Shown here: piece by piece, positions 38,564 to 64,000 of the stretch
How the letters are laid out: the number at the start of each line of letters is the position of its first letter
How positions within the stretch are numbered: the stretch's first letter is position 1
Assembly (NCBI GenBank): GCA_022650455.1
Contig: JALCPO010000005.1
Span: forward strand, 1 to 64,000
Source of the DNA: Oscillospiraceae bacterium
GTDB lineage: Bacteria; Bacillota; Clostridia; Oscillospirales; Acutalibacteraceae
Reading direction: 5' to 3'
Length of the DNA stretch: 64,000 nt
Program-made: the position numbers and the translations under genes
The notes under the pieces: model-generated
What the model saw: only the letters and a program-made list of their open reading frames with translations
What the model was told of the DNA's origin: nothing
The model's database searches: none

Positions 38564-38836
38564 TAACAGCCGGACGGGGTCCGGATTATACTGGAATGAG
38601 AAAATGCGATGAGCGGAAGAAGTAACCGCCAACGAGGGCACCAGAGAGAAAGCGTCACCGGCTGAGAGCGCTTTTTTGCCCGGCAGGCGGCCAAATGCGT
38701 CCGTGAGCGGGCGGGGGGAAACGAAGTATCCCCGCACGGGTGGCTCCGTTAACGGCCGCCATGAGCAAGAAAACGGAGTGGAACCGCGGATTTTTTCGCC
38801 TCCGTCCCCTTTTTGGGGGACGGAGGCTTTCTTTTT
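38564..38836 (+). ncRNA. T-box leader with UGC (Cys) specifier
   Basis: The leader has the T-box order. AGAAGTAACC (AGTA-type bulge) comes near its 5' end, followed by AGAGAGAAAGCG...GGCTGAGAGCGC. The specifier-loop strand CCAAATGCGTCC has codon TGC at 38696-38698. The antiterminator bulge is GAGTGGAACCGCGGA (38776-38790), and a terminator (GCCTCCGTCCCC/GGGGGACGGAGGC plus T-rich tail) ends at about 38836. Uncharged tRNA-Cys would pair with UGC and the UGGA bulge and allow read-through into cysE-cysS. The 416-nt gap between pgsA and cysE is filled by this element. Confidence 0.93.
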
Positions 38837-47220: not shown

Positions 47221-47489
47221 AAAAAAGCTTCCGCCTCTTTGTTAGAGGCGAAAGCTGTAAGCTTCGCGGTACCACTCTACTTGCCGCAGCGATGCGGCAT
47301 CTCTGTGTGCATCCGACAATGCACTTCCCTGTAACGGGGGAAAACCGGGATCCGCTTACTCGCTGACGCTTTCGGCATCCTGCTCCAGGGTGATCTCCTG
47401 CAGACTCCGCACCGCCTCACACCAACCGGCGGCTCTCTGGATGCGGGATGTTCTGCAATCCTTCCCTTTCGGCGCATTTGATTTGATTG
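47221..47489 (-). ncRNA. T-box leader with AUC (Ile) specifier, ilv operon
   Basis: Read on the minus strand, the leader has AGAGAGCCGCCGGTTGGTG in stem I. The specifier strand GCAGGAGATCACCC has codon ATC at 47394-47392. The antiterminator bulge is GAGTGGTACCGCGAA (47277-47263), and a terminator (AGCTTTCGCCTCTAAC...GAGGCGGAAGCT plus seven T residues) ends at 47221. Uncharged tRNA-Ile should allow transcription into ilvB-ilvN-ilvA. The T-box class is certain; the codon is assigned by position and fits the operon. Confidence 0.92.
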
Positions 47490-47681: not shown

Positions 47682-47967
47682 CAAAGAATACTGCGAAATG
47701 CAGCGATCGGGTAAAAGTTTCGGATTTTTCCCTTGCAGAGAGCCGCTGGCTGGTGCAAAGCGGAAGGGTATTCCGGGACGACATCTCCCGTGAGCAGCCG
47801 GGTTGAACGCGCAGCCATTAGATCCGGCCGGTTCTAGACCGTTACATCTGGCCGCATGGGGCGGGGCCCGCCCGTTGCGGATGAGCAGGCCGCGAAACAG
47901 CGGCAAGCAGAGTGGTACCGCGGAACAGAACCTCCGTCTCTGAATCAATCAGAGACGGAGGTTTTTT
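47682..47967 (+). ncRNA. T-box leader upstream of cstA, probable AUC (Ile) specifier
   Basis: Stem I contains GCAGAGAGCCGCTGGCTGGTGC. Its 5' arm TTTCGGATTTTTCCCTT pairs with AAGGGTATTCCGGGA, leaving GACATCT as the specifier-loop strand, with ATC at 47783-47785. The antiterminator bulge is GAGTGGTACCGCGG (47910-47923). The terminator AACCTCCGTCTC/GAGACGGAGGTT plus TTTTTT ends at 47967. The T-box assignment is firm. The Ile reading depends on a hand fold; Asp (GAC), Thr (ACA) or His (CAT) would need a shifted register. Confidence 0.88.
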
Positions 47968-54587: not shown

Positions 54588-55700
54588 TCAGGAGATTTCC
54601 CGATAGTTGCCGAGGAAGGTAAAGAGCGGAAGCTCGTCGCGCAGGGCGCACAGAAGATCGAGCGTGTGCCCGTCGCGCACGTCCCCCGCGAAATCGAGGT
54701 AAAAATCGTACTCGAAATTTTTCCCCGGAATGGGGCGCGACTCGATTTTCGTCAGGTTCAGCCCGGCGGCGGCGAAGCGCGCCAGCACGGCGGAAAGCGT
54801 TCCGGTGCGGTGGGGCAGGGAAAAGCACAGGCTGATTTTATCCGCGTCCGGCGGAAGGCACAGCCTGCGCCCGACGGCGAGGAAGCGCGTGCGGTTGGCG
54901 CTGGTATTCTGAATGTCCCGCGCGAGGATGTTCAGGCCGCGTTCCCCTGCCGCGCGCAGGGAGCAGACCGCCGCGGCGCCCGGCTTTCCGGCCGCTTCCG
55001 CCGCTTCCGCCGTGCTGGAGAACGGCTCCGTTTTGAGGCGGTGCGCGGTAAGAAATTCCGAGCACTGGCGCAGCGCCTGCGGGTGGGAATACACGACGCG
55101 GACGTTTTCCAGCACGGGCTCCGCGGACGCGAGGCAGTGCCGCACCGGCAGGCTGAGGGCGCCCGCGATGGAGAACCGGTACTTCAGGATGAGGTCGTAC
55201 ACCTCGCCCACGGAGCCCGCCGAGGAATTCTCCACCGGAAGGACGCCCAGCCCGGCCCGGCCGGTTTCGACCGCTCGGAAAACGGCCGGGAAATCCGGGA
55301 AGAACAGCGGCTGCGCGTCCGGGTACAGGCGCAGGAGCGCTTCGTGCGAAAAGGAACCCTTTTTCCCCAGGCAGGCGACGGTTTCCGCTTTGGGAAGCTC
55401 CCGGGGCGCGCGCTCCACGGCTTCGCGCAGCGGCGCCCCGCTGCCGAGCAGACGGTGCTGCGCCGCGCGGCTCATGGCCAGCAGGTCGGAAAACAGGGCG
55501 CGCGCTTCGCCGCCGTACTCCCCCGCGCTTCGCGCGATGCCGTCCAGAATCTCCCGCTCGCGCTTCTCGTTGAAAACCGGGAGCTTCTGTTCCCGTTTGA
55601 CCGCGGCGACCCGTTCGGCGCATTTCATGCGGCGCAGGAACAGCGGCAGGAGCTCGGCGTCGATGGCGTCGATTTCTCCGCGGATTTCTTTGAGTGTCAT
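54588..55700 (-). CDS. pheA: Bifunctional chorismate mutase/prephenate dehydratase
   Basis: A 370-aa fusion enzyme that converts chorismate to prephenate and then to phenylpyruvate. ATG 55700 follows GGGGATGGGAAA. Residues 1-90 are an AroQ-type chorismate mutase (LKEIRGEIDAIDAELLPLFL, RMKCAERVAAVKREQKLPVF, REREILDGI). Residues ~105-285 are the dehydratase (CLGKKGSFSHEALLRLYP, GVLPVENSSAGSVGEVYDLI, RDIQNTSANRTRFLAVG, with the catalytic Thr replaced in register by Ser/Asn-Arg-Thr). Residues ~295-365 form the ACT domain for Phe feedback (ISLCFSLPHRTGTLSAVLAR, TKIESRPIPGKNFEYDFYLD). It is the last gene of the aro operon. Confidence 0.94.
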   Translation of the reverse strand: MTLKEIRGEIDAIDAELLPLFLRRMKCAERVAAVKREQKLPVFNEKREREILDGIARSAGEYGGEARALFSDLLAMSRAAQHRLLGSGAPLREAVERAPRELPKAETVACLGKKGSFSHEALLRLYPDAQPLFFPDFPAVFRAVETGRAGLGVLPVENSSAGSVGEVYDLILKYRFSIAGALSLPVRHCLASAEPVLENVRVVYSHPQALRQCSEFLTAHRLKTEPFSSTAEAAEAAGKPGAAAVCSLRAAGERGLNILARDIQNTSANRTRFLAVGRRLCLPPDADKISLCFSLPHRTGTLSAVLARFAAAGLNLTKIESRPIPGKNFEYDFYLDFAGDVRDGHTLDLLCALRDELPLFTFLGNYREIS

Positions 55701-55732: not shown

Positions 55733-56800
55733 TCAGGAGAGCAGATCCAGCAGCGCCACCGCCGCCGCGGCTTCCACGGCGGGGACGGCGCGCGGGACGA
55801 TGCAGGGGTCGTGCCGGCCGCGTACGGTCAGCTTGGCATTTTTCTTTGCCGCGAGGTCGACGCTGTCCTGTTCCCTGCCGATGGACGGCGTGGGCTTGAA
55901 CGCCGCGCGGAAGACGAGCGGCATCCCCGTCGTGATGCCGCCGAGGATCCCGCCCGCGCGGTTGGTTCGCGTTCTGACCGTGCCGCCGTCGTAGTAAAAC
56001 GGGTCGTTGTTCTCGCTGCCGAACAGGTCCGCCGCGGCAAACCCCGCGCCGAACTCGACGCCCTTGCAGGCTGGGATGGCGAACAGCAGCGAGGAAAGCA
56101 CGGACTCCGCCCCTTCGGAAAGCGGCCCGCCGAACCCGGCGGGAAGCCCGACGGCGGCGCACTCCGCGACCCCGCCGACGCTGTCGAGGTTCCGGCGGGC
56201 GGCCTCGATCTCGGCGCGCATGGCCCGCTCGGCATCCGGTCCGAGGGTCGGAAAATAGCGCGATGAAAGGTCTTCCAGAAGGGCGGCGGGCAGATGGACC
56301 GGGTCAAACGGGACGTCTTTCACGCCGTGGACGGAGAGGACGTGTGCGCCGACCGTCACGCCGCGCCGCTTTAAAATTTGGCGGCAGACCGCGCCCGCGA
56401 AAACCAGCGGGGCGGTCAGGCGGCCGGAAAAACGGCCCCCGCCGCGCACGTCCTGAAACCCGTGGTAGCGGACGTACGCCGTGTAATCCGCGTGGCCGGG
56501 GCGCGGAATGTTTTGAATCTCCCCGTAGTCGGAAGAACGGGTGTCGGCGTTGGCGATCACGGCGCAGAGCGGCGCCCCCGTAATCCTGCCGTTCCAAAGG
56601 CCGCTCAGGACGCGCGGCTCGTCGCTTTCCTTCCGCGGCGTGGAAGAACGGTCGTGCCCCGGAGCGCGGCGCGCCATCTGCGCCAGGACCTCCTCCATGT
56701 CGATCTCCCCGCCCGCGGGCAGGCCCTCCAGCACCGCGCCGACGGCAGGCCCGTGGCTTTCGCCGAAAACGGTCAGGCGGATTTTATTCCCCCATGTCAT
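55733..56800 (-). CDS. aroC: Chorismate synthase
   Basis: A 355-aa FMN-dependent enzyme for the last common step of aromatic synthesis. The family signature GESHGPAVGAVLEGLPAG is at residues 13-30, RRAPGHDRSSTPRKESDEPR follows, and the second signature is RYHGFQDVRGGGRFSGRLTA. The FMN/substrate region GSENNDPFYYDGGTVRTRTN and GGILGGITTGMPLVFRAAFK are intact. Its start overlaps the aroA 3' end by 17 nt, so translation is coupled. It lies 32 nt upstream of pheA. Confidence 0.97.
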   Translation of the reverse strand: MTWGNKIRLTVFGESHGPAVGAVLEGLPAGGEIDMEEVLAQMARRAPGHDRSSTPRKESDEPRVLSGLWNGRITGAPLCAVIANADTRSSDYGEIQNIPRPGHADYTAYVRYHGFQDVRGGGRFSGRLTAPLVFAGAVCRQILKRRGVTVGAHVLSVHGVKDVPFDPVHLPAALLEDLSSRYFPTLGPDAERAMRAEIEAARRNLDSVGGVAECAAVGLPAGFGGPLSEGAESVLSSLLFAIPACKGVEFGAGFAAADLFGSENNDPFYYDGGTVRTRTNRAGGILGGITTGMPLVFRAAFKPTPSIGREQDSVDLAAKKNAKLTVRGRHDPCIVPRAVPAVEAAAAVALLDLLS

Positions 56801-58019
56801 ACGCTTTTCCCCCCAGACGGTTGTAGTCCCGGAAAAAGCCCGGGTAGCTTTTGCGGACGCTCTGCGCGTCCGTCAGGACGGTTTCGCCGTCCGCTTTCAG
56901 CGCGGCCACGGCGAGGGCCATCACGACGCGGTGGTCGCCGCGGCCTTCCGCCTCGCCGCCGCGCAGGCGCTCCACGCCGGCGATCTCCAGCCCGTCCGGC
57001 CGTTCGCGCACCCGCGCGCCGAGCCGGTTCAGGCCGTCCGCCATGGCCGAAAGACGGTCGCTTTCCTTCAGCCGCAGGCGTTCCGCATGGGCGATCACCG
57101 TGCGCCGTCCGGGAAGGAGCGCCGCCGCGGCGGCGAGAGCCGGGACGAGGTCGGGAATCTGCGACGCGTCGATGGCGCGGTCCGAATCCGGAAGCCGCCC
57201 CGCTTCCGCCGTGAGAATTCCGTCCTTCCATGCGGTCTTTGCGCCGAACCGGCGGAACAGGGTTTCCGCGGCGCGGTCACCCTGGCAGGACGCGGGGTTC
57301 AGCCCGCGCAGGCGGACCGGCCCGCCGAGCATCCCGGCGGCGAGGAAAAACGCCGCCTGCGACCAGTCGCGTTCCACGGGAAAGCCGGGACGGGGCCGGT
57401 AGCTCCGGTTTCCCGCGACCGTCCAGCCGGTTGCCGTCCGTCCGGCGGGAACGCCGAACGCGCCCATCGTCCGCACCGTCATGTCCGCGTAGGCCGCGGA
57501 CTGGAGCGGCGAGGTCAGGACGATCTCGCTGTCCCCGTCCAGGAGCGGGAGGGCGAGCAGCAGGCCCGTGACGAACTGGGAGCTTACGTCGCCGGGAAGG
57601 GAAAAGACGCCTGGCCGAAGGGTTCCGCTCACCGTCAGCGGCAGGCCGCCGCGCGTTTCGCAGCGCACGCCGTGCCGCGGCAGGCAGGCGAGGTAGACCC
57701 CGAGGGGCCGCTCCGGCAGGCGGCCGTGCCCGGTGAACGTGGCCTTCACCCCCAGAGCGCAGGCGAGCGGGATCAGAAAGCGGAGCGTGGAGCCGGATTC
57801 CCGGCAGTCCAGCGTGACGGGCCCGCCGCCCGCCGCAAGCAGCCGAGCGACGGAATCCCGCGTGGCGAGAAGGTCGTCGCTCAAAGGCCCGCCCGGCGGA
57901 AGGACGTCCCCGCCGCCCGCGAGGGCGGAGCAGATGACGGCGCGGTGCGCGGCGCTTTTGGAGAGCGGGACGTCCAGCGTCCCGCTCAGCGCGGACGGAA
58001 GGATGCGGACCCGGCTCAT
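56784..58019 (-). CDS. aroA: 3-phosphoshikimate 1-carboxyvinyltransferase (EPSP synthase)
   Basis: A 411-aa enzyme that adds the enolpyruvyl group to shikimate-3-phosphate. The substrate-binding N-terminus reads SGTLDVPLSKSAAHRAVICS. ESGSTLRFLIPLACALG and TGHGRLPERPLGVYLACL follow (the G-L-R-P-type region). LPGDVSSQFVTGLLLALPLL and RLRLKESDRLSAMADGLNRL carry active-site Ser/Gln and Lys/Glu residues. The protein is somewhat shorter than the 427-aa E. coli enzyme. It overlaps aroC by 17 nt and aroB by 4 nt. The N-terminal loop differs from the usual PGSKSxxNR (here PLSKSAAHR). Confidence 0.95.
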   Translation of the reverse strand: MSRVRILPSALSGTLDVPLSKSAAHRAVICSALAGGGDVLPPGGPLSDDLLATRDSVARLLAAGGGPVTLDCRESGSTLRFLIPLACALGVKATFTGHGRLPERPLGVYLACLPRHGVRCETRGGLPLTVSGTLRPGVFSLPGDVSSQFVTGLLLALPLLDGDSEIVLTSPLQSAAYADMTVRTMGAFGVPAGRTATGWTVAGNRSYRPRPGFPVERDWSQAAFFLAAGMLGGPVRLRGLNPASCQGDRAAETLFRRFGAKTAWKDGILTAEAGRLPDSDRAIDASQIPDLVPALAAAAALLPGRRTVIAHAERLRLKESDRLSAMADGLNRLGARVRERPDGLEIAGVERLRGGEAEGRGDHRVVMALAVAALKADGETVLTDAQSVRKSYPGFFRDYNRLGGKAYDMGE

Positions 58020-59071
58020 CGCAGCGCCTCCGCCAGCTTCAGCAGCCCGGCTTTGTCCACGGGGCGGAGGAAGCTTTCCCCGATTTTCCGGAGCATGACG
58101 AGGCTGAGGACGCCCCCGCGGGCCTTTTTGTCCAGCATGGCGGTGTCCACGATTTTGGAAACGTCCGCGCCGTCGGAGACCGGGAGACCGTATTTCCGCA
58201 GCACGCCGGCGATCTCATCCGCGGTGCCCGGTTCGGTCAGCCCGGCTTTTTCGCCGCACCTCGCCATCATGACCATGCCGATGCCGACGGCCTGCCCGTG
58301 GGAAAGCCCCCGGTATCCGTGCAGCTTTTCGAGGGCGTGGCCGAACGTGTGGCCGAAGTTCAGGAGCATGCGCTCCCCGTTGTCGAATTCGTCCTGCTCG
58401 ACGGCGGCGCGCTTGATTGCGAGGTTTTCCGCGATGACGCGCTCCATGTCGGCGCGGACGTCGGTGTCCCGAATGCGGTCGAACAGCGGGCGGCTCTTGA
58501 TGCACCCGTGTTTGACGGCCTCGCCCATGCCGTCCGCAAAAAAGCGGGGCGGCAGGGTTTCCAGCGTGCGGGGGTCGATGAGGACGAGCGAAGGCTGGTG
58601 GAACGCGCCCACGAGGTTTTTCCCCTGCAGGATGTCCACGCCCGTCTTGCCGCCGATGGACGAGTCGATCTGCGCGAGGAGCGAGGTGGGAATCTGGATG
58701 AACCGGATGCCGCGCAGCCAGGTCGCCGAGGCAAACCCGGCCATGTCGCCCGTTACGCCGCCGCCGAGGGCGACGGCAAAGTCGCTGCGGGTCAGGCCGT
58801 TTTCCGCAAACGAGCGGTACATGGCCTCCACGGTGGAAAGCCGCTTGCTCGTTTCGCCCGCCGGGAACTCGAACGTCCCGACGGAAAAGCCCGCCGCGCC
58901 GAGGGAAGACGCCACCCGCTCCGCGTACAGCGGCGCCACGTTCGAGTCGGAAACGACGACCGTCCGGGTCCCGGGCCGGAACAACCCGGCGGCGTACTCA
59001 CCCGCGCGGTCCAGGCAGCCGCGCGCGAGAATGATCTTGTAAGGGGACGATGTGTGTACGGTAAGCTCCAT
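58016..59071 (-). CDS. aroB: 3-dehydroquinate synthase
   Basis: A 351-aa NAD- and metal-dependent enzyme for the second shikimate step. ATG 59071 overlaps the tyrA stop by 1 nt; the longer track ORF is antisense-type read-through into tyrA. NAD-binding sequence is VALGGGVTGDMAGFASATWL. Other blocks are FIQIPTSLLAQIDSSIGGKT, VDILQGKNLVGAFHQP and FADGMGEAVKHGCIKSRPLF. The metal-ligand region is NFGHTFGHALEKLHGYRGLS, followed by HGQAVGIGMVMMARCGEKAG. Normal length. Confidence 0.97.
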   Translation of the reverse strand: MELTVHTSSPYKIILARGCLDRAGEYAAGLFRPGTRTVVVSDSNVAPLYAERVASSLGAAGFSVGTFEFPAGETSKRLSTVEAMYRSFAENGLTRSDFAVALGGGVTGDMAGFASATWLRGIRFIQIPTSLLAQIDSSIGGKTGVDILQGKNLVGAFHQPSLVLIDPRTLETLPPRFFADGMGEAVKHGCIKSRPLFDRIRDTDVRADMERVIAENLAIKRAAVEQDEFDNGERMLLNFGHTFGHALEKLHGYRGLSHGQAVGIGMVMMARCGEKAGLTEPGTADEIAGVLRKYGLPVSDGADVSKIVDTAMLDKKARGGVLSLVMLRKIGESFLRPVDKAGLLKLAEALR

Positions 59072-59907
59072 TATTCTCCCAGTCCTTCCTTTACCAGCCT
59101 TCCCCTGCGCAGCAGCGCCCGCAGGGCGGCGCCGTCGCCCGCGGCGACCGCGTTGCGGATCTCCGCGATGTGGCCGGTCAGCGTGTCCAGCTCTTCCACG
59201 AGGGCTTCCCGGTTCTCGAGGAACAGCTCCGCCCACATGGTTTCGTTGATGTTTGCCACGCGCGAGACGTCGCGGTAGCTCCCGGCGGAAAAGCCCTTGT
59301 GCCCGGGGCACCGGGGGCTCATCACATACGAGCATGCCAGCACATGCGGCACCTGGCTGGTGAACGCGATCATCCGGTCGTGCTCTTCCGGCGTGGTTTC
59401 CACCGTGCGGGCAAAGCCGAGCTTCGGCGCGAGGCCTTTCAGGGCTTCCACCGCCTGCTTCGGCGCGCCGCACGGAACCAGGATGTAGCTGGCCCCGCGG
59501 AACAGGTCCGCGTCGCTCTGCGCGAAGCCGTTCTTTTCTTTCCCGGCCATCGGGTGGCCGCTCACGAAAGAGAATCCGCGTTCCTTCGCAAGCCCCGCCA
59601 GGCGGGGGCAGAGGCGGGACTTGACCCCGCAGGTGTCCGTGACCAGGCAGCCGGGCCGGATGGAGGCAAGGTGCTTCCGCACAAAATCGACGTCCGCTTT
59701 CGGGTAGAGGCACAGGAAGAGGATGTCCGCCTTTTTGAGGTCCTCTTCCGTGCCGATCTTCCCGACCGCGCCGGATGCGAGGGCGGCGACCCGCGCGCTT
59801 TCGTCGCGGTCGATCCCGGCGACGGAGCAATCCGTGTATTTTCGAAACGCTTTGGCGAGCGAGCCGCCGATGAGCCCCAGACCGACGATGACCACATTCC
59901 GTTTCAT
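59071..59907 (-). CDS. tyrA: Prephenate dehydrogenase
   Basis: A 278-aa NAD(P)-dependent enzyme that oxidises prephenate to 4-hydroxyphenylpyruvate for tyrosine. ATG 59907 follows GGAGGAATCGCCC. The Rossmann motif is VVIVGLGLIGGSLAKAFRKY. The active-site region is FVSGHPMAGKEKNGFAQSDA, with the conserved His, and HDRMIAFTSQVPHVLACSYV carries the second conserved His. There is no C-terminal ACT domain, so feedback control is probably exerted elsewhere in the pathway. It sits between aroF and aroB in the operon, 52 nt from aroF. Confidence 0.95.
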   Translation of the reverse strand: MKRNVVIVGLGLIGGSLAKAFRKYTDCSVAGIDRDESARVAALASGAVGKIGTEEDLKKADILFLCLYPKADVDFVRKHLASIRPGCLVTDTCGVKSRLCPRLAGLAKERGFSFVSGHPMAGKEKNGFAQSDADLFRGASYILVPCGAPKQAVEALKGLAPKLGFARTVETTPEEHDRMIAFTSQVPHVLACSYVMSPRCPGHKGFSAGSYRDVSRVANINETMWAELFLENREALVEELDTLTGHIAEIRNAVAAGDGAALRALLRRGRLVKEGLGE

Positions 59908-59959
59908 GGGCGATTCCTCCGCTTTTCCAGTTTCCCCTATTATAGCAGAAAAGCGCCCG

Positions 59960-60985
59960 CTATTCCACCGCCCGCCCCAGGGCTTTCGCGGCGGCCCGGA
60001 CCCGCCCGGCGGTGTGGTCGAACTGGTCCGGCGTGAGAGACTGCGCGCCGTCGGACAGGGCCTTTTTCGGGTTGTTGTGGACTTCGATGAGAAGGCCGTC
60101 GGCCCCCGCGGCGACGGCCGCGAGCGCGAGCGGCTCCACCAGCCACGAAATGCCGGAGGCGTGGCTCGGGTCGACGACGACCGGCAGGTGGGAAAGCCGT
60201 TTCAGCACCGGCACGGCGGAGATGTCCAGCGTGTTGCGGGTGTACGTCTCGAACGTGCGGATCCCCCGCTCGCACAGGATGACCTGCTCGTTGCCGCCCG
60301 CCATGATGTACTCGGCGCTCATCAGGAGCTCTTCCATCGTGTTGGAGAGGCCGCGCTTCAGGAGAATCGGCTTGCGGATTTTGCCGAGCTCCTTGAGCAG
60401 CTCGAAGTTCTGCATGTTCCGCGCGCCGACCTGGATGATGTCGACGCCCTTTTCGAGGAACAGGTCGATGTACTTTTCGCTCATGATCTCCGTCACGATG
60501 GGGAGGCCGGTTTCCCGTTTCGCCTGCGTGAGGAGCTCCAGCCCTTCCGCCCTCAGGCCCTGGAACGAATAGGGCGAGGTTCTCGGCTTGAAGGCGCCGC
60601 CGCGCAGGAACTGCGCCCCCGCCGTCTTGACGCGCCGCGCCACTTCGCAGATCTGCTCCGGGGTTTCGACGGAGCACGGGCCGGCGATGAGCGCGAGGCC
60701 CCCGCCGCCGATCTTCTGGCCGCCGGGGAGCGTGACGACGGTGTCGTCCGGGTGAAATTTGCGGTTCGCCTTTTTGTAAGGCTCCTGCACGCGCTTGACG
60801 TTTTCCACGCAGTCCTGCGCGGCGACGGAATCGATGTCGATCGACGAGGTGTCGCCGATCAGGCCGAGCACGGTGCTCTGGGTGCCGAACCAGATGTTGA
60901 CCTTGACGTTATACTCTTTTTCCAGCGCCGCAGCGAATTCTTTGGCCTGCCCGGGAAGACAGCCGGGCTTCAGTACGATGATCAT
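59960..60985 (-). CDS. aroF: 3-deoxy-7-phosphoheptulonate synthase (DAHP synthase, type I-beta)
   Basis: A 341-aa enzyme that condenses PEP and erythrose-4-phosphate, the entry step of aromatic synthesis. ATG 60985 follows GAGGAAACCGTC; the much longer track ORF continues upstream into the leader. Residues 1-75 form the ferredoxin-like regulatory domain of I-beta enzymes (MIIVLKPGCLPGQAKEFAAA). The barrel has ALIAGPCSVETPEQICEVAR, LRGGAFKPRTSPYSFQGLRA, GARNMQNFELLKELGKIRKP and PVVVDPSHASGISWLVEPLA. It is the first gene of the six-gene aro operon and is preceded by a terminator-bearing leader. Confidence 0.96.
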   Translation of the reverse strand: MIIVLKPGCLPGQAKEFAAALEKEYNVKVNIWFGTQSTVLGLIGDTSSIDIDSVAAQDCVENVKRVQEPYKKANRKFHPDDTVVTLPGGQKIGGGGLALIAGPCSVETPEQICEVARRVKTAGAQFLRGGAFKPRTSPYSFQGLRAEGLELLTQAKRETGLPIVTEIMSEKYIDLFLEKGVDIIQVGARNMQNFELLKELGKIRKPILLKRGLSNTMEELLMSAEYIMAGGNEQVILCERGIRTFETYTRNTLDISAVPVLKRLSHLPVVVDPSHASGISWLVEPLALAAVAAGADGLLIEVHNNPKKALSDGAQSLTPDQFDHTAGRVRAAAKALGRAVE

Positions 60986-61028
60986 GACGGTTTCCTCCAT
61001 TCGTTCTTTTCGGTTCGGAACCGAAAAG

Positions 61029-61062
61029 AAAAAAGCGGCGGAGCTGCTGTCAGCTCCGCCGC
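61029..61062 (-). terminator. Intrinsic terminator in the aro leader (attenuator candidate)
   Basis: On the minus strand, GCGGCGGAGCTG and CAGCTCCGCCGC form a perfect 12-bp stem with a 4-nt loop, followed by TTTTTTCTTTT. It lies between the promoter at 61286 and aroF at 60985, so every aro transcript must pass it. Just upstream, CGCGC (in GGCGCGCAACTCG) can pair with GCGCG at the foot of this stem, giving a possible competing structure. Confidence 0.88.
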
Positions 61063-61080
61063 GCTTTTTGTCCGAAGACC

Positions 61081-61224
61081 CTACGAGTTGCGCGCCAAGG
61101 GTTCCGATACTGCGGAACCCAAGCTTACCGGCAGTTTTCTGCATGGCGAAACACCCCACGCCGCAAAGAAATAGCGGGGGTAGCAATAGCCTGTAAATCG
61201 TGCGCTGCAGAAAAACCGCTTCAT
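61081..61224 (-). CDS. Candidate aromatic-rich leader peptide of the aro operon (47 aa)
   Basis: This ORF is below the track's size limit. ATG 61224 opens MKRFFCSARFTGYCYPRYFF, then AAWGVSPCRKLP, and stops at TAG 61083-61081, 19 nt before the terminator stem. Nine of residues 4-23 are Phe (5), Tyr (3) or Trp (1). The likely ribosome binding site is AAAGGTG about 12 nt upstream. RNA around it can form GTTTTTCTGCA/TGCAGAAAAC, pairing the Phe codons with sequence 70 nt downstream. This fits transcription attenuation by ribosome stalling when Phe/Tyr/Trp tRNAs are uncharged. It could also be chance coding within a structured RNA. Confidence 0.6.
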   Translation of the reverse strand: MKRFFCSARFTGYCYPRYFFAAWGVSPCRKLPVSLGSAVSEPLARNS

Positions 61225-61257
61225 GGTTAAGTTTCACACCTTTGCCGTTTGTTGACT

Positions 61258-61286
61258 ATCTTAGTACATTCCCCAGTGGGTGTCAA
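61258..61286 (-). promoter_or_regulatory. Promoter of the aro operon
   Basis: On the minus strand, TTGACA (61286-61281) and TAAGAT (61263-61258) are 17 bp apart. Transcription should begin near 61250, giving a 265-nt leader before aroF. Confidence 0.85.
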
Positions 61287-61371
61287 GCAATTTTTCGGAA
61301 AACCGGGGACCGACAAAATGGGGCAAAATGGAAAGAAAATTAATATTTTCAAAATATATACATTATTTTAC

Positions 61372-61400
61372 TTGAAATGCCGAAAATTTATTGATAGAAT
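61372..61400 (+). promoter_or_regulatory. Promoter of the PAS-GGDEF gene
   Basis: TTGAAA (61372-61377) and TAGAAT (61395-61400) are 17 bp apart. The following 170 nt up to the start at 61575 are A/T-rich, then GC-rich, with a GGCCGGGCGGCC repeat near 61525. No riboswitch was recognised. Confidence 0.6.
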
Positions 61401-61574
61401 AAAGAAGTAAGTATTTAATATAGGATAAACTTAGAAATATTGGCACTGCGATTTCTGCAAAAAAATATATCGAAAACCGATAGTTTCCGACATGACGGTT
61501 CTGTTTTAAAAGTGTCCCGGATCGGGCCGGGCGGCCAAACAGGTCCGGCCTGAAAGACGAGAGGAACGGTTGGG

Positions 61575-63287
61575 ATGGGTGAAATCGATCGCATTGATTC
61601 GGAACGGCTCCTGGGGGAACTGGGCTACAGCGTTTTGTGCGTCCGCAGCGATGAGGAACTCACCATTGCCTATGCCGGCGAGCCGTTTTACGAGGCCCTG
61701 GGCTTTCGGGACGGGGAAATCACCGCCCTGCTGCAACGGGGGGAAGATACGGTCCTGCGCAACGAACCGCCGATCGACTGGAAACGGGTCAGGGACGAGA
61801 TCCGGAAAAACGGCTATGCCGAGCTGGAGCTCCGGCTGATTAAAAAAAACGGCCACCACATCTGGGCGGCCTTCCGCACGCGGCTTTTTTCCGAAAACGG
61901 GAAAGAGTATTTCTGCGGCATCCTGAACGACATCACGCTGACGCGCCGCTCCCGCAGGATCCAGCGGGAGCAGGCGGAAGAGCTGGAAGCCCTGACCGCC
62001 AACGTGCCCGGCGGCGTCCTGTGCTGCCGCGCGGACGAAAACATGACGCTGAACCTCGTCAGCAGCGGGTTCTGCCGGATCACGGGCTACACGGCCGGGG
62101 AGATCGCCGAACGCTTCGGGAACCGGTTTATCGAGATCGTTTACCCGGAGGACCGCGGCCGGCTGATGCTCCACCTGAAAAACTGCACCTGCCGGAACGA
62201 CATCACGGAAATCACGTTCCGTATCGTGGGGAAGGACGGGAACGTGATGTGGGTGCTGGACAAGGCACGCTGCACGGCCGACTGCAGCGGGAACCTCTGG
62301 GTTTACAGCGTCCTGATCGACATTACCGGCATGAAGAAGGCCCAGGACGAGCTGGCCGCCAGCGAGGAACGCTACCGCCTGATCCTGGAGCATGTGGCGG
62401 ACCCGGTGCTGGACTGCAACTTCAAGACGCAGCAGCTTTACTATTCGCCGACATTTCTGCAGAAATTCGGCGATTTTTATCCCGATCACGGCGATATTCT
62501 GGAGATTGCGGAGAAAAGCGGAATCCTGTACGACGGGGACCGGGATGTGCTCCGCAAAAAGGTCCGGGAGCTGTCGCAGGCGAAATTCCATGAAAAAGAC
62601 TTCGGGAACATGGAGTTCCGCCTGCGGGACCGGAACGGGAAGTACCTCTGGTGCAGCATCCACGCCTTTCTGTTTAACGACGGGATGGGGGAGCCCGAGC
62701 GGATGATCGCCGTCGTTTCGGACATCGACCGGCAGAAGCGGGAGAATATCGATCTCCGCCGGAAGGCGGAGCACGACCTGCTGACCGGCCTTTACAACCG
62801 CGTGACTACCACCGCCATGGTCGACGGGGCCATCGCGCGCAGCGGACCCGGCCAGCGGCACGCGCTTTTCGTGATCGACATCGACAACTTCAAGCTGGTG
62901 AACGACAGCCTCGGCCATCTTTGCGGCGACCAGCTGATCGTGGAAACGGCCGGGCAGATCCGCAGGCAGTTCCGGGAGGATGACGTCGTCGGGCGGGTCG
63001 GCGGCGACGAGTTCGTCATCTTTCTCAAAAACGTTACGTCCGGGCTTGTTCTGAATAAGGCCGGCATCCTGCAGCGCATGTTTGCGGACCTGCAGATCAA
63101 CGAAAAAGTCAGCAATCCCATTTCCGGGAGCATCGGCGTGTCGTTTTACCCCATTGACGGGCGGAATTACGAGGAATTGTTCCGGAAAGCGGACGCGGCG
63201 ATGTACGCCGCGAAAAACAGCGGGAAAAACGCGTTCCGCATTTATGTGCACGGCATCGAGGCCATCGCGCACGGGGACGTCAGGTAG
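61575..63287 (+). CDS. PAS-domain diguanylate cyclase (GGDEF)
   Basis: A 570-aa cytoplasmic protein. ATG follows GAGAGGAACGGTTGGG. It has three PAS-like modules, at about residues 15-125 (ELRLIKKNGHHIWAAFRTRL), 140-260 (FCRITGYTAGEIAERFGNRF, KDGNVMWVLDKARC) and 275-395 (FRLRDRNGKYLWCSIHAFLF). The GGDEF domain follows (residues ~405-560): HDLLTGLYNRVTTTAMVDGA, FVIDIDNFKLVNDSLGHLCG and an intact active site GRVGGDEFVIFLK. There is no EAL domain. It should make cyclic di-GMP in response to a PAS signal. It lies inside the aro neighbourhood and converges on the aroE-aroK fusion with an 8-nt overlap. Confidence 0.92.
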   Translation: MGEIDRIDSERLLGELGYSVLCVRSDEELTIAYAGEPFYEALGFRDGEITALLQRGEDTVLRNEPPIDWKRVRDEIRKNGYAELELRLIKKNGHHIWAAFRTRLFSENGKEYFCGILNDITLTRRSRRIQREQAEELEALTANVPGGVLCCRADENMTLNLVSSGFCRITGYTAGEIAERFGNRFIEIVYPEDRGRLMLHLKNCTCRNDITEITFRIVGKDGNVMWVLDKARCTADCSGNLWVYSVLIDITGMKKAQDELAASEERYRLILEHVADPVLDCNFKTQQLYYSPTFLQKFGDFYPDHGDILEIAEKSGILYDGDRDVLRKKVRELSQAKFHEKDFGNMEFRLRDRNGKYLWCSIHAFLFNDGMGEPERMIAVVSDIDRQKRENIDLRRKAEHDLLTGLYNRVTTTAMVDGAIARSGPGQRHALFVIDIDNFKLVNDSLGHLCGDQLIVETAGQIRRQFREDDVVGRVGGDEFVIFLKNVTSGLVLNKAGILQRMFADLQINEKVSNPISGSIGVSFYPIDGRNYEELFRKADAAMYAAKNSGKNAFRIYVHGIEAIAHGDVR

Positions 63288-64000
63288 CGGGCCTCAGCGC
63301 TTCCAGCACCGCCGCGGCCGTTTCTTCGGGGGAACGGCCGGCGTCCACCGCAAGGTCGGCGGCGGCCCGGTAGGCCGCGCTGCGCGCGAGGTACAGCTCC
63401 GCCAGGCGGTCCCCTCCGCCGTCCCGGCGGAGCAGCGGGCGGGACCGGTCGCCTTTCAGGCGTTCCCGCACCGTTTCGAGGGGAGCGTCCAGCAGCACTA
63501 CGACGCCGTTTGCGCGGAAGGCGGCGGCATTCTCCGGGTCCAGCACGGTGCCGCCCCCGGCGGCGACGACCAGCCTGCCCGACCGGGAAAGCCCGCGCAC
63601 CGCCCGCCGCTCCATTTCTCGGAAAGCCGCTTCGCCTTTTTTTGCAAAGATCTCGGGGATGGACATCCCTTCCTCCCGCTCGATGGACTCGTCCAGGTCG
63701 AGAAACCCGCAGCCCGTTTTTTCGGCGAGAAGGCGGCCCGCGGTGGTTTTCCCGCTTCCCATGAAGCCGCAGAGCACCACGCTGCCGAACTTTTTTTTCA
63801 TTTCAAACGCCGTGTCCGCGCAGAGGCGCTTGAGGCTGTCTTCGGAAAAACGGGAGCCGAGCCAGATCTCCTCCGACGCCGCGGCCTGGAACACCAGCAT
63901 TCCGACGCCCCCCACGGCTTTTCTGCCGTGCTTTTTCGCCAGGGCGAGCAGCTTCGTTTCGTTCGGGTTGTAGACCGCGTCGAACACGCAGGCGGAACCG
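63280..64000 (-). CDS. Shikimate dehydrogenase-shikimate kinase fusion, C-terminal part (runs off window)
   Basis: The frame is open from the window end. Its first visible residues, GSACVFDAVYNPNETKLLALA then GRKAVGGVGMLVFQAAASEE, are the C-terminus of shikimate dehydrogenase (AroE). After a ~25-residue linker (SRFSEDSLKRLCADTAFEMK) the same frame continues as shikimate kinase (AroK): FGSVVLCGFMGSGKTTAGRL (Walker A), FLDLDESIEREEGMSIPEIF, FREMERRAVRGL and VVAAGGGTVLDPENAAAFRA. GTG 63987 in the track is an internal Val. The fusion would do two successive steps, dehydroshikimate to shikimate to shikimate-3-phosphate. The N-terminal part is outside the window. Confidence 0.88.
   Translation of the reverse strand, partial: GSACVFDAVYNPNETKLLALAKKHGRKAVGGVGMLVFQAAASEEIWLGSRFSEDSLKRLCADTAFEMKKKFGSVVLCGFMGSGKTTAGRLLAEKTGCGFLDLDESIEREEGMSIPEIFAKKGEAAFREMERRAVRGLSRSGRLVVAAGGGTVLDPENAAAFRANGVVVLLDAPLETVRERLKGDRSRPLLRRDGGGDRLAELYLARSAAYRAAADLAVDAGRSPEETAAAVLEALRPAT

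Follow-up and report, generated by a model that had tools for sequence, protein, structure and literature searches.

A conserved Phe/Tyr-rich leader peptide upstream of aroF in Clostridia as a probable transcription attenuator

Results

The aro operon and the elements upstream of it

The window analysed here is a stretch of 64,000 nucleotides from an Oscillospiraceae bacterium. Its minus strand carries six genes recognised by NCBIfam, namely aroF (DAHP synthase; 59960..60985), tyrA (prephenate dehydrogenase; 59071..59907), aroB (3-dehydroquinate synthase; 58016..59071), aroA (EPSP synthase; 56784..58019), aroC (chorismate synthase; 55733..56800), and pheA (chorismate mutase/prephenate dehydratase; 54588..55700), with aroF as the first gene of what amounts to an operon for Phe and Tyr synthesis, as the first-pass annotation had it. 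Upstream of aroF, between 61286 and 61029 of the same strand, lie all the elements described in that annotation, viz., a promoter, an aromatic-rich ORF of 47 codons, and a perfect 12-bp terminator. The promoter (TTGACA-17-TAAGAT; 61286..61258) comprises a -35 hexamer TTGACA (61281..61286) and a -10 hexamer TAAGAT (61258..61263) separated by a 17-nt spacer; it occupies the same place in the related genomes G001 and G009, and, with slight changes, in G005. The predicted transcription start lies near 61251. The ORF (MKRFFCSARFTGYCYPRYFFAAWGVSPCRKLPVSLGSAVSEPLARNS; 61081..61224) is followed by the intrinsic terminator hairpin (61035..61062), whose 5' arm (61062-61051) we term region 3, and by its U-tract, TTTTTT (61029..61034). 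The terminator thus sits between the leader ORF and aroF, and in the wider leader set described below the median distance from the leader stop to the terminator is 33 nt.

An Rfam scan of the aroF leader gave no family above cut-off, its sole match being the Xoo2 sRNA (RF02241) at 26.5 bits against a gathering cut-off of 45. We rejected this identity as sub-threshold; the model matches both strands, so what it sees is the terminator hairpin. The absence of a T-box from this leader holds as first claimed, with no RF00230 match at E<=5 in 59000-64000. We did not retain the 425-aa in-frame extension of aroF that would begin at a GTG (61237), since the equivalent GTG in G009 directly precedes a TGA. 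Adjoining the aro promoter is a divergent gene of the PAS/GGDEF (diguanylate cyclase) type (61575-63287, plus strand), and a similar gene also occurs near an aroF leader module in L284. Beyond it, a minus-strand gene (63280-63999) that runs past the end of the window codes for a fusion of shikimate kinase with the C-terminal part of a shikimate dehydrogenase. The same genome has a second aroF paralogue (G000:C1:104422-105432; 51% identical), which is devoid of leader peptide, terminator, and T-box.

The leader ORF and its relatives

The first 23 residues of the window's leader include 5 Phe, 3 Tyr, and 1 Trp, as previously noted. When the interval from promoter to terminator was shuffled 2000 times with dinucleotides preserved, no ORF had these 9 aromatics in its first 23 codons (maximum 7). 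Its start codon is preceded by a weak, poorly spaced Shine-Dalgarno-like AAAGG (61239..61243, about 14 nt 5' of the ATG); in most relatives an AGGAG stands at a better distance.

A DNA search of 60 relatives recovered few true leaders because these diverge fast; hence, the loci were found by searching for AroF and then reading the region upstream, which covered 80 named loci, the window's family, and its genus. About 90 aroF leaders obtained from relatives show the same anatomy as the window. Most aroF upstream regions contain an SD-preceded, F/Y-rich ORF of around 35 codons and then an intrinsic terminator; among the named species with this arrangement are Clostridium tyrobutyricum (L043, MKNIIGKGIEKLNKKFYFEFSFSWGYYYFSAGYLFCKK...), C. 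weizhouense (L044), and Marasmitruncus massiliensis (L055). Compared with background, the 90 leaders are enriched 4.4-fold in Phe (16% of residues), 4.3-fold in Tyr (10%), and 2.5-fold in Cys; Trp is enriched 2.7-fold, yet it makes up only 1.4% of residues against a background of 0.5%.

Within the window's family an SD-preceded start lies in frame with a conserved CGATTT in 32 of 34 leaders, aromatics per 20 codons number 6.3 in this frame but 2.2 and 3.5 in the other two, and the alignment gaps between the start codon and the hairpin P2 (see below) are mostly multiples of three. To extend this set we ran a covariance model on 300 genomes of the family; with just three base pairs it is in effect a nucleotide profile, and it matched 71 of them, some also represented in the model and many outside it. 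Among the 62 matches that were read out, 60 lie upstream of a same-strand aroF, and in 61 the expected frame still holds an F/Y-rich ORF. The one without it, L309, has the look of a chance match, and L269 ends near a contig edge. We looked for relatives that keep the RNA structure and have lost the frame, and saw none among these 62 matches; rather, in alignments of relatives the frame, the Phe and Tyr codons, and the alternative stems are conserved together. The codon-position differences from the three closest relatives (8, 11, 10; 9, 13, 13; 2, 8, 7) show no third-position bias and so are no evidence for or against coding; the +1 frame, too, is often open (42/59).

Several loci depart from the simple arrangement. 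In L160 (2523-3879; G001, same genus) about 1.2 kb with an opposite-strand gene resembling an XRE-type regulator parts the leader and terminator from aroF, and because of this insert the attenuator may be uncoupled from the gene. In L288, L290, and L306 a same-strand epimerase/dehydratase-like gene stands between leader and aroF, and would share the attenuator (both kinds of intervening gene were recognised by reading). L284, L286, and L287 (G150, G422) show two leader-aroF modules within one genome, some 3 kb from each other, which suggests a joint duplication of attenuator and gene.

A rare arginine codon fixed next to Phe

In the leaders of the window's family an Arg-Phe pair at codons 7-9, or slightly later in a few, is always written CGA-TTT (61195..61200 in the window). 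The six nucleotides form invariant columns in an alignment of 30 sequences and are present in all 34 curated leaders and in 58 of the 61 true model matches (the remaining three lack the RF altogether), counts that are inflated by shared ancestry. Hardly any Arg codon, if any, is rarer than CGA, which accounts for 5 of 171 Arg codons in the window's aro operon and 3 of 156 in aroF genes of the family (2-3%). Slow reading of the codon, with a pause of the ribosome there, could account for its fixation, as could a fixed RNA contact or the two together.

The Arg-Phe pair also bears on whether the peptide itself is the sensor. In TnaC, the nascent peptide stalls the ribosome in response to Trp, and by the same token a peptide of the form M..RF[TSMI].[FY]... 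might stall it on free Phe or Tyr. The near-fixed distance of RF from the start in this subfamily would suit such an arrest; however, the peptide is otherwise conserved only in scattered aromatics, and what is fixed in RF is its nucleotides, CGA-UUU, which a peptide effect does not need. We therefore consider arrest by the nascent peptide highly improbable.

Three kinds of pairing in the leader RNA

The folded window leader is more stable than its shuffles (z -2.37), and three kinds of pairing, namely 1:2, P2, and antiterminator, each exceed chance across the leader set. The first, P1, links codons just after the ATG (region 1, GUUUUUCUGCAG; 61205..61216) with codons after P2 (region 2, UGCAGAAAAC; 61134..61143). 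The downstream pairing of the Phe/Tyr-codon segment proposed in the first-pass annotation is realised here as a perfect 10-bp match, GUUUUCUGCA/UGCAGAAAAC. P1 takes the form of a 12-bp version of different sequence in G005 and of yet another version in L010. Its z is -1.98 in the window (p 0.043) and on average -1.24 over 34 leaders (Fisher 1e-8; like the Fisher values that follow, this one assumes independence among related sequences and is therefore too strong).

P2 (61153..61181; arms 61181-61173 and 61162-61153) is a hairpin with Tyr and Phe codons in its loop, whose stem differs in sequence between leaders: CCCCGC/GCGUGGGG in the window, UUUCGGCUA/UAGUCGGAA in L015, CUCCCAG/CUGGGAG in L101, and CCAACAG/CUGUUGG in L110. 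RNAalifold returned just three P2 pairs from the family alignment because the loop is misregistered by 3 nt; hence, each sequence was folded and compared with random synonymous recodings of the same peptide. By this measure P2 is stronger than expected both in 34 family leaders (mean z -1.72, Fisher 2e-14) and in 55 others (mean z -1.51, Fisher 7e-17); in the window alone its z is only -0.65. Since P2 exceeds what the peptide requires, the P, R, A, and W of the YPRY..AW segment are dictated in large part by the hairpin. This applies to the Trp that the first-pass annotation had counted among the aromatics: its UGG lies in the P2 stem (GCGUGGGG), it varies in relatives, and Trp is scarce in the leaders as a whole, on which grounds it is probably incidental and not sensed.

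The antiterminator pairs region 2 with the 5' arm of the terminator. Over 85 leaders it has a mean z of -1.40, with 30 at p<0.05 (Fisher 1e-20), and 57 of the 85 duplex midpoints fall near the leader stop, where 46.1 would be expected. The segment UUGGGUUCCGC...GGCGCGCA (61088..61122) is the candidate in the window, with a predicted pairing to the terminator 5' arm and foot. Its best duplex, with GCGCGGCGGAGCUGAC, has -21.1 kcal/mol and is no better than shuffles (z -0.10) because of the high G+C. CGCGC can pair with the GCGCG terminator foot, as the first-pass annotation had proposed, and UUCCGCAG is kept in G001 and G009. The alternative stems are thus borne out over the set for P1, P2, and the antiterminator, and fall short for the window's own antiterminator, whose exact partner is a predicted candidate.

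Stems that covary around a near-invariant CGAUUUA, together with an RNA constraint exceeding that of the peptide, raise the prospect of a riboswitch-like element that binds a metabolite or tRNA, with P1, P2, and the fixed loop as its sensor and the ORF as a secondary feature. Against it stand the lack of an Rfam match, the conservation of frame, SD, and aromatic codons in leaders that otherwise differ over most of their sequence, and the more distant clostridial leaders, which retain F/Y-rich ORFs without CGAUUU. Such an element is in our estimation very unlikely.

Leader peptides and T-boxes at aroF across Clostridia

Strict criteria call a leader at 48 of 76 named aroF loci; shuffled sequences give a mean of 0.9 such calls, and the reverse strand gives 1. 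These figures speak directly to the idea that the hairpin is merely a terminator or the end of a small RNA and the aromatic ORF a coincidence. That idea draws on the weak Xoo2 match, which covers just such a terminator, and on the genomes in which a gene stands between leader and aroF; it is already contradicted by the conservation data, including the placement of 60 of 62 model matches upstream of aroF, and by the failure of all 2000 shuffles to attain the aromatic content of the window, and we give it almost no credence.

In a class-wide sample of 69 genomes, taking the best aroF of each, there are 36 strict leader calls from 24 families (that in L247 probably spurious) and 8 T-box motifs (three of them called by the motif scan only), with 25 genomes lacking a strict call of either kind. 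By these counts, as read from sequence, aroF in the class Clostridia is commonly preceded by a putative leader peptide, which T-boxes replace in some lineages. The expectation of the first-pass annotation that leader-peptide control would be unusual for Clostridia accordingly fails. Rfam confirms T-boxes at aroF in four of the named loci; in all, the confirmed cases are L027, L051, L074, L083, L192, L200, L203, and L205. The Rfam score of L195 does not rise above the cut-off, and the T-box called in L089 by a simple motif scan was discarded as false on the lack of Rfam confirmation.

T-boxes do occur elsewhere in the window's genome, with 12 matches, some upstream of tyrS, pheS, and trpE (identified from translations by reading, not by family search). 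Three T-box matches lie within the window at 47241-47481 (minus strand), 47694-47944 (plus), and 38600-38806 (plus; score just under the Rfam cut-off), and precede genes that read as an acetolactate synthase, a carbon-starvation CstA-like transporter, and a serine acetyltransferase, respectively.

Discussion

A proposed Phe- and Tyr-responsive attenuator

Comparison across the leader set establishes a shared anatomy, a conserved frame, Phe/Tyr enrichment, and three kinds of pairing. We propose, with a probability of roughly 0.87, that the region is a ribosome-mediated transcription attenuator responding to how much charged Phe-tRNA and Tyr-tRNA is available; from these patterns we infer that the ORF is translated, that the ribosome stalls on it, and that the switch operates, along with any dominance of Phe or Tyr. 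The attenuation first suggested from the window alone is in this respect upheld by the frame, the aromatic codons, and the alternative stems seen in relatives; what falls away is its supposed rarity in Clostridia and, probably, any role of Trp.

In the proposed scheme RNA polymerase would start near 61251, and a ribosome would begin the leader peptide as the P1-P2 hairpin (regions 1 and 2, within the coding region) forms. With Phe and Tyr plentiful, the ribosome would reach the TAG at 61081 and mask the sequence just 5' of the terminator, whereupon the terminator would form and transcription end before aroF. With charged tRNA-Phe or tRNA-Tyr scarce, it would stall at the F/Y codons (codons 4-20) and mask region 1, and RNA behind these codons would then pair with the 5' arm of the terminator before its 3' arm is made. 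With the 5' arm so sequestered, the aroF-tyrA-aroB-aroA-aroC-pheA operon would be transcribed.

We modelled this by placing a ribosome at each codon and computing what share of the terminator 5' arm is paired with upstream RNA at the stage when the 3' arm has yet to be made. For the window the modelled occupancy is 0.7-0.8 when the ribosome sits on the aromatic codons, and 0.14 when it has reached the stop; the corresponding values are 0.79 and 0 in G001, 0.56 and 0 in G009, and 0.74 and 0.16 in L010. In the model, a ribosome at the aromatic codons would thus favour antitermination and one at the stop codon termination. At equilibrium the completed terminator always wins, which means that kinetics must decide, as they do in known attenuators. 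The equilibrium model also predicts antitermination without a ribosome, an outcome that real attenuators prevent through 1:2 pairing.

Significance and comparison with known systems

The amino-acid operons of Firmicutes are usually described as the territory of T-boxes; at clostridial aroF, leader peptides outnumber them about 4:1 in our sample, and the window's own leader occurs in a genome where tyrS, pheS, and trpE have T-boxes. The gene thereby offers a natural experiment in which two sensors of tRNA charge replace each other, and its leaders supply candidate Phe/Tyr-responsive switches for anaerobes. We found no description of clostridial aroF leaders in the open-access papers searched. 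The mechanism itself is classical and belongs to textbooks. More tentatively, and with considerable doubt, these leaders might constitute an undescribed, class-wide Phe/Tyr attenuator family that is the main alternative to the T-box at aroF, with the rare CGA and its UUU, fixed ahead of the sensing codons in the window's subfamily, as a built-in ribosome pause timing translation against transcription.

The enterobacterial attenuators pheL-pheA, trpL, and hisL have a short SD-led ORF with codons for the pathway product, alternative 1:2, 2:3, and 3:4 pairings, and a terminator before the first gene. The aroF leader resembles them in its ORF rich in pathway-product codons, its predicted alternative pairings, and its terminator upstream of the first biosynthetic gene. 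It differs in that it would govern a whole aroF-to-pheA operon, would read a mixture of Phe and Tyr instead of one amino acid, and has aromatic codons in the loop of P2. The T-box (RF00230) has the same input, tRNA charge, and the same output, and occupies the same place before aroF in some relatives; however, it binds tRNA directly and needs no ORF.

When a survey of 2010 (PMC2965389) made its find in bacilli, the only regular leader-peptide systems it knew of until then came from Proteobacteria and Actinobacteria. His leader attenuators have been described in Firmicutes, where regular leader peptides replace T-boxes in lineages including Peptostreptococcaceae (PMC9413887, PMC2965389); these have His codons, concern his and hisS genes, and occur sporadically, in contrast to the aroF leaders, which are common across the class. 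Along with these, the closest published element is the uORFC-13-1 motif (PMC8632094), reported upstream of aroF from 24 examples in Acholeplasma and environmental sequences only. It shares with the clostridial leader, going by its text description, the position at aroF, a promoter, an RBS, a short ORF in which a U-run codes for at least one Phe, a terminator just downstream, and a further stem; its reported range sets it apart.
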